From a virus, in IMG/VR virus record IMGVR_UViG_3300048818_000189, positions 1 through 25,317 of that record: a stretch of DNA of 25,317 nt; one strand, given 5' to 3'. Below are positions 13,200 to 13,530 of the stretch, in pieces. The notes under the pieces were generated by a model. It was given only the letters and a program-made list of their open reading frames with translations. It searched no databases and was not told the DNA's origin. Numbering within the stretch: the stretch's first letter is position 1; each line of letters starts with the position of its first letter. A program made the translations under genes and the position numbers.

Positions 13200-13379
13200 T
13201 CCGGTTGTATTCTGTTGCCGAGGACAACCGGAAAGAACTCCGCCTTCTAGGGCTGTTTAGGCCGCAAGGGGCATATCAAAGCTATTGGGCTTGGCCTTTA
13301 TTGTTTGCGCTGTCAAGGTAGTCGCCTGCCTATTGACTCGCGAACCCTCAACACATCCCGTCGAAACCGGGGCACCCCC
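13200..13379 (-). ncRNA. ssrA: Permuted tmRNA, coding piece (5' half with tag)
   Basis: On the minus strand the RNA starts GGGGGTGCCCCGGTTTCGAC at 13379, the diagnostic tmRNA 5' signature. GGGGGTG (13379-13373) pairs with CACCTCC of the acceptor piece (13400-13394), giving a 7-bp acceptor stem whose third pair is G.U, the alanine identity element. GATGTG (13357-13352) can pair with CACATT (13429-13424) as helix P2. A pseudoknot follows (GTCAA 13337-13333 with TTGAC 13316-13312, then GCG(A)CT with AGCGC). After an A-rich 11-base strand, GCC at 13295-13293 is the likely resume codon of tag AKPNSFDMPLAA, ending in TAA at 13259-13257. An 8-bp hairpin (CCGGTTGT/ACAACCGG, 13231-13201) closes the piece. 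The 3' end is approximate. The tag with its C-terminal LAA would direct rescued products to ClpXP-type proteases. Confidence 0.88.
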
Positions 13380-13389
13380 ATAAGTATGG

Positions 13390-13530
13390 TGGTGGAGGTG
13401 GCGGGAGTCGAACCCGCGTCCGAAATGTGATCAAGTCCGGTCATCATCAATCTTTGTGTGGGGGCTGGGCCGCACTAGTGCGTTTACCGCCAGAAGCCTG
13501 AGCCCCCTATCCGGCGTACATCCGGAGTAT
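13390..13530 (-). ncRNA. ssrA: Permuted tmRNA, acceptor piece (3' half with T-arm and CCA)
   Basis: The minus strand ends TTTCGGACGCGGGTTCGACT followed by CCCGC, CACCTCC, A and an encoded CCA (13392-13390). That is the universal tmRNA 3' end, with T-stem GCGGG/CCCGC and loop TTCGACT. It lies upstream of, not downstream of, the 5' signature, separated by only 10 bases (13389-13380), so the gene is circularly permuted and should mature into two RNAs held together by the acceptor stem and P2. Further upstream GGGGGCT (13507-13501) pairs with AGCCCCC (13466-13460) across an enclosed hairpin, consistent with a pseudoknot domain, and TCCGG/CCGGA (13526-13510) forms another hairpin. The 5' boundary of the mature piece cannot be fixed from sequence. 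Confidence 0.88.

Follow-up and report, generated by a model that had tools for sequence, protein, structure and literature searches.

Does a virus whose tail operon contains what appear to be the two halves of a permuted tmRNA encode a complete ribosome-rescue RNA of its own, and how did such a gene come to lie among tail genes? We explored this question in a window of 25,317 bases that constitutes one entire IMG/VR record (IMGVR_UViG_3300048818_000189), classed as linear. We consider it highly probable that the window carries a complete permuted phage tmRNA gene, which would yield a two-piece, alanylated rescue and tagging RNA acting via host SmpB, and that this gene forms part of an insertion between tail genes.

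Detection and architecture of the tmRNA gene

A scan of the window with all Rfam families returned a single match above threshold, namely RF04321 (tmRNA_permuted), aligned to minus-strand positions 13451-13257 over the complete model (1-213 of 213) and scoring 115.8 bits, well above the gathering threshold of 47 (E 2.6e-22). Independently, ARAGORN predicted one gene, classed as tmRNA* (permuted), at 13482-13166 on the minus strand with the tag AKPNSFDMPLAA. The whole gene lies on the minus strand, with a core at approximately 13456-13199 (Table 1); the sequence-only reading had delimited a close span, 13200-13530, and left the strand implied by its coordinates, without stating it.

The acceptor piece successively features a 5′ P2 strand, GGAC, the T arm (13417-13401), the acceptor 3′ strand CACCTCC (13400-13394), an A (13393) and an encoded CCA (13392-13390). 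Beyond the intervening sequence, the mRNA-like piece consists of the acceptor 5′ strand GGGGGTG (13379-13373), a D-like segment GGTTTCGAC ending at 13360, the P2 strand GGGATGTG (13359-13352), a PK1-like hairpin, the tag and a downstream hairpin. This order agrees with the initial description of a CCA-bearing half ending at 13390 upstream of a 5′ half starting at 13379, with 10 bases between. Each half and the GGTTTCGAC signature are present as a single copy in the window, the halves in permuted order, and there is therefore no one-piece version of the tmRNA nearby.

Table 1. Features of the tmRNA gene and of the surrounding genes in the window
Feature	Coordinates	Strand	Evidence or remarks
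Acceptor piece (3′ tRNA-like half)	13390..13456 (predicted 5′ end)	-	RF04321 alignment from 13451, sequence, cofold
Intervening sequence CCATACTTAT, 10 nt	13380..13389	-	sequence; removal expected
mRNA-like piece	13199..13379 (predicted 3′ end)	-	RF04321, ARAGORN, pair counts
Tag reading frame AKPNSFDMPLAA with stop	13257..13295	-	ARAGORN; RF04321 alignment ends at stop codon
Stable hairpin after the tag	13199..13233	-	fold
76-aa ORF	12957..13187	-	begins just past the post-tag hairpin; no family match
DUF2163-type tail (hub) gene, downstream of the tmRNA	11253..12866	-	PF09931, PF09356; phrog_778
Free-standing HNH endonuclease	13875..14597	+	phrog_59, E 9.4e-22
DUF2460 tail gene, upstream of the tmRNA	14472..15341	-	PF09343; phrog_2913
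Long gene, upstream of the tmRNA in transcription direction	15548-18967		no family match
Other endonuclease gene between tail genes	9986-10384	-	
Other endonuclease gene between tail genes	21487-22140	+	
Other endonuclease gene between tail genes	22939-23634	-	

Two details were noted at the expected mature 3′ end: a second CCA directly follows the encoded one (ACCACCATACTTAT, 13394-13380), giving CCACCA in the precursor, and A73 could alternatively pair with the U preceding G1. Outside the gene, CATTTCGGAGGCCGGTT at 13704-13720 on the plus strand resembles the tmRNA segment 13427-13411 of the T arm at 15/17 positions; by our own estimate such a resemblance is close to chance expectation, and the 17-nt inverted repeat was rejected.

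Pairing between the two pieces, tag frame and folding

The acceptor stem comprises seven pairs, formed by GGGGGTG with CACCTCC, and its third pair is G3.U70, as first recognized from the sequence. To this window we aligned 18 further permuted tmRNAs, of viral-contig or bacterial origin and likewise having a short intervening sequence, and counted the 20 pairs of the acceptor, T and inner P2 stems in the 19 sequences against shuffles and slid registers. Paired cells amounted to 90.3%, versus 80.8% in shuffled alignments and at most 59.5% in slid registers, while 44 cells had changed on both sides, versus 12.3 in shuffles; no shuffle reached the observed values of pairing or covariation. Changes on both sides were seen in 11 of the 20 pairs, including all eight of inner P2, a stem in which 75.7% of the cells are paired. 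Covariation therefore supports the pairing between the pieces that the sequence-only reading had already proposed. The independent covariation evidence comes from P2, because the search pattern fixed most bases of the acceptor stem and part of the T arm. Likewise, G3.U70 is kept in all 19 sequences, its bases having been required by the pattern for the other 18, so this conservation is not independent evidence from the set. The outermost of the counted P2 pairs proved poorly conserved across the 19 sequences, as expected with length changes in the alignment.

The tag frame ends in LAA followed by TAA, as initially described, and is preceded by TAAAG, with an A at position -4. All the parts that trans-translation requires on the RNA side are thus present, namely alanine identity, an encoded CCA, P2, a resume codon with A at -4, an LAA-ending tag and a stop. 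From these features, the RNA is probably functional and probably represents the phage's own rescue and tagging RNA, the role first attributed to it. They also bear on another role, in which the RNA would bind SmpB or AlaRS and block host trans-translation, the activity suggested for the tag-less tmRNA of mycobacteriophage DS6A. A phage RNA made of the tRNA-like domain only has indeed been reported as a tmRNA inhibitor (PMC4131195; PMC11915505), but a decoy would need neither the full tag frame nor the stop, the LAA end and the A at -4 that are all retained here, and we regard this role as very improbable.

The presence of a pseudoknot, another element of the sequence-only reading, is unproven: both the PK1 position and the region after the tag yield stable hairpins, and the best crossing helix after the tag leaves too few linking bases. 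The 67-nt stretch after the tag folds at -19.6 kcal/mol (z -2.23). A pseudoknot drawn by hand in this stretch (GUUCU 13238-13234 with AGAAU 13213-13209) was rejected as unproven because no bases are left to cross the stems. A pseudoknot after the tag is possible.

The tail-gene junction and its endonuclease gene

Several tail genes flank the tmRNA on each side; together with the RF04321 and ARAGORN results, this upholds the original placement of a permuted two-piece tmRNA inside a phage tail operon. Upstream, the size and place of the long gene suggest that it encodes the tape measure protein; downstream are found the genes of the DUF2163 protein, an NlpC/P60 protein, a large tail protein and a tail spike. 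No dedicated promoter or terminator signal was found near the tmRNA above chance frequency. Since no clear promoter of its own lies nearby, the tmRNA may well be co-transcribed with the late tail genes, as this tentative argument would make probable.

In the window, the DUF2460 and DUF2163 genes are separated by a gap of about 1.6 kb that contains the tmRNA, the 76-aa ORF and the HNH gene. In Pseudomonas phage KT1 and the two Acinetobacter phages 5W and Effie, these tail genes abut or overlap each other, and they map side by side in two of three prophages of Pseudomonadota genomes; a search for DUF2460 found none in the third prophage or in Brevundimonas phage Polewnik. The tail regions of these seven relatives, which are distant (only 30-40% identity), harbor no tmRNA. 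In IMG/VR, searches for close relatives gave two weak hits with the DUF2460 query and none with the DUF2163 or major-tail-protein queries, and no near relative with an empty DUF2460-DUF2163 site was found in these searches. As judged from these gene orders and from the position of the HNH gene described below, the tmRNA, the small ORF and the endonuclease gene seem to have been inserted where DUF2460 ends, between tail genes that are normally adjacent.

The HNH gene is convergent with the DUF2460 gene and overlaps its 3′ end by 126 nt on the opposite strand; most database matches of its product stop near residue 200, approximately at the position of the DUF2460 stop, and its match to HNH_3 lies below the Pfam cut-off. 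Overall, four free-standing homing-type endonuclease genes are interspersed among the tail genes in 25 kb, three of them HNH and one GIY-YIG with NUMOD3. The two plus-strand HNH proteins (13875-14597 and 21487-22140) are paralogues, approximately 43% identical.

The tmRNA could accordingly be a mere passenger, carried by or linked to the neighboring HNH homing endonuclease, of little or no benefit to the phage, in a unit that homes into the intergenic site. The shared 1.6-kb insertion and the abundance of endonuclease genes among the tail genes point this way, as does the reported statistical linkage of the homing endonuclease SegB to phage tRNA genes (PMC13096335). These SegB-type systems likewise place an endonuclease gene beside a phage tRNA-like gene, with the difference that they involve tRNA genes, whereas the window combines an HNH protein with a tmRNA. 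Against this reading, the tmRNA has lost its similarity to any known ssrA except in the tRNA-like core, yet its features are intact, a combination suggestive of selection on function; moreover, no endonuclease match was obtained among the few neighbors tested of other phage permuted tmRNAs. We therefore hold passive carriage to be quite unlikely. A rescue and tagging RNA that works and is linked to the HNH endonuclease is possible. In the strongest form of this proposal, the HNH protein would mobilize the complete two-piece tmRNA between phages into the tail-gene junction, with rescue supplied late in infection. This form is speculative and rather unlikely to hold as a whole; if true, ribosome rescue would be available when tail proteins are produced in bulk.

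Relation to other permuted tmRNAs and proposed mechanism

Phage-encoded permuted tmRNAs have been published, including that of the marine methylophage Melnitz (PMC9004378), a correction to the sequence-only reading, which was aware of no well-described case. In a count from 2022, 402 phages encoded 133 unique tmRNA structures; a two-piece form was predicted for 53, and 50 of these 53 were marine or aquatic (PMC9004378). A tmRNA database from 2025 comprises 79 unique tmRNAs of phages, whatever their form (PMC11915505). Our pattern scan of IMG/VR, which allowed intervening sequences of up to 30 nt, yielded 41 stretches with a permuted tmRNA, whose intervening lengths fall into two groups, 4-12 nt and 19-30 nt. 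All 13 records tested matched RF04321, and the tags mostly end in AA. Their neighboring genes vary: L004 has a terminase gene beside the tmRNA, L016 a DNA polymerase gene and L025 one for a virion structural protein. The same pattern, restricted to loops of up to 16 nt, detected 32 loci in GTDB genomes, the majority bearing the title of Accumulibacter or another member of the Rhodocyclales, where the loops measure 3-5 nt. The loop of the window is thus short, as first noted, but loops of such length are found elsewhere. Two cultured phages, Alcaligenes phage QDWS595 and Xanthomonas phage XacN1, also carry a permuted tmRNA that is unannotated in their records. Because of these published phage cases and of the IMG/VR, cultured-phage and GTDB loci, neither carriage by a phage, nor permutation, nor a short loop is new.

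The closest systems nevertheless differ from the window. Melnitz and related T4-like phages share with it a phage-encoded permuted gene with a tag and the same order of halves (PMC9004378), but Melnitz is a T4-like myophage whose gene has a glutamine riboswitch beside it and an alphaproteobacterial affinity (PMC9004378), whereas the window displays a siphophage-type tail operon with no T4 genes and no riboswitch at gathering score. The RF01850 type of Accumulibacter and other Rhodocyclales has a very short intervening sequence (3-5 nt versus 10 nt) and the tag ANDERFALAA instead of AKPNSFDMPLAA. Recognition by permuted tmRNA models, the check proposed at the outset, held for RF04321, whereas the best of the older clade-specific models (RF01850, beta_tmRNA) gave 71.9 bits, below its gathering score of 84. 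QDWS595 and XacN1 match both RF04321 and RF01850, but they have long intervening sequences and lie close to tRNA genes, outside any tail-operon setting. The most similar tag, AKPNGFALPLAA, was seen in L029 (IMGVR_UViG_3300045996_001066), which differs in that its intervening sequence measures 19 nt, P2 and the tag are some 80 nt further apart, and the neighboring genes are unrelated. A back-translated tag pattern (AKPN.F..PLAA), which excluded TTG/TTA leucine codons and the TAG stop, had no match in IMG/VR.

A query with the tmRNA DNA against 398 Pseudomonadota genomes found no near-identical ssrA: the listed matches were nearly all confined to the T arm and the acceptor 3′ half, the best ones extending slightly further, and the tags at the top bacterial ssrA loci differ from that of the window. 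This bears on the possibility that a host ssrA was acquired at an attachment site, or that host DNA was misassembled into a phage contig. Integration at ssrA is common among phages, and T-arm fragments occur in many prophage records, yet the gene is complete with both halves and tag, lies between tail genes in a window with no integrase among its annotated genes, and shares no more than the tRNA-like core with the bacterial ssrA genes sampled. A host origin of this kind, which the sequence-only reading had envisaged as an ssrA fragment, is extremely improbable.

The preferred reading remains that of a phage rescue RNA. The minus-strand transcript, probably produced together with the late tail genes, would fold into an acceptor stem closing off the 10-nt intervening sequence, as sequence and covariation indicate. 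By analogy with known two-piece tmRNAs, host tRNA-processing enzymes would then excise this sequence, RNase P cleaving at 13379 and 3′ trimming proceeding to the CCA at 13390, and the two remaining RNAs would stay joined by the acceptor stem and P2. G3.U70 would direct charging with alanine, and host SmpB would bind; no SmpB gene was found in the window, but this record is fragmentary and the protein should come from the host. The RNA could then enter stalled ribosomes and switch them to the tag AKPNSFDMPLAA, leading to release and marking of the nascent chain for degradation.

The setting of the gene, in a siphophage-type tail operon among late structural genes and beside an HNH gene, looks new. 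The locus adds a two-piece tmRNA next to a mobile-type endonuclease, in a setting unlike that of the T4-like phages described with such genes. Together with the other short-loop phage genes, it provides natural material on the minimal cleavable intervening loop and on the reasons for phage-borne rescue RNAs.

Further observations concern the phage genes encountered in this work. The XacN1 gene (AP018399.1; L078, 1419-1838) is a permuted beta-type tmRNA of a jumbo phage; its tag is ANANTFDYALAA, and two tRNAs bearing a CTA anticodon lie nearby. That of QDWS595 (OK149171.2; L077, 1437-1819) lies inside an unannotated tRNA cluster and has the tag ANDNVYAAAA. L004 and L028 display long tags (ASANKTAKVIAFPASASMAFAAAA and ATANKMAKLFVIPAPALMVTAAAA, respectively), and the L004 gene comes after the large terminase gene. 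Finally, in the window, residues ~66-138 in the N-terminal part of the DUF2163 protein (11253-12866) resemble the 22162-22914 protein; both match phrog_8234, pointing to a domain shared by two virion proteins.
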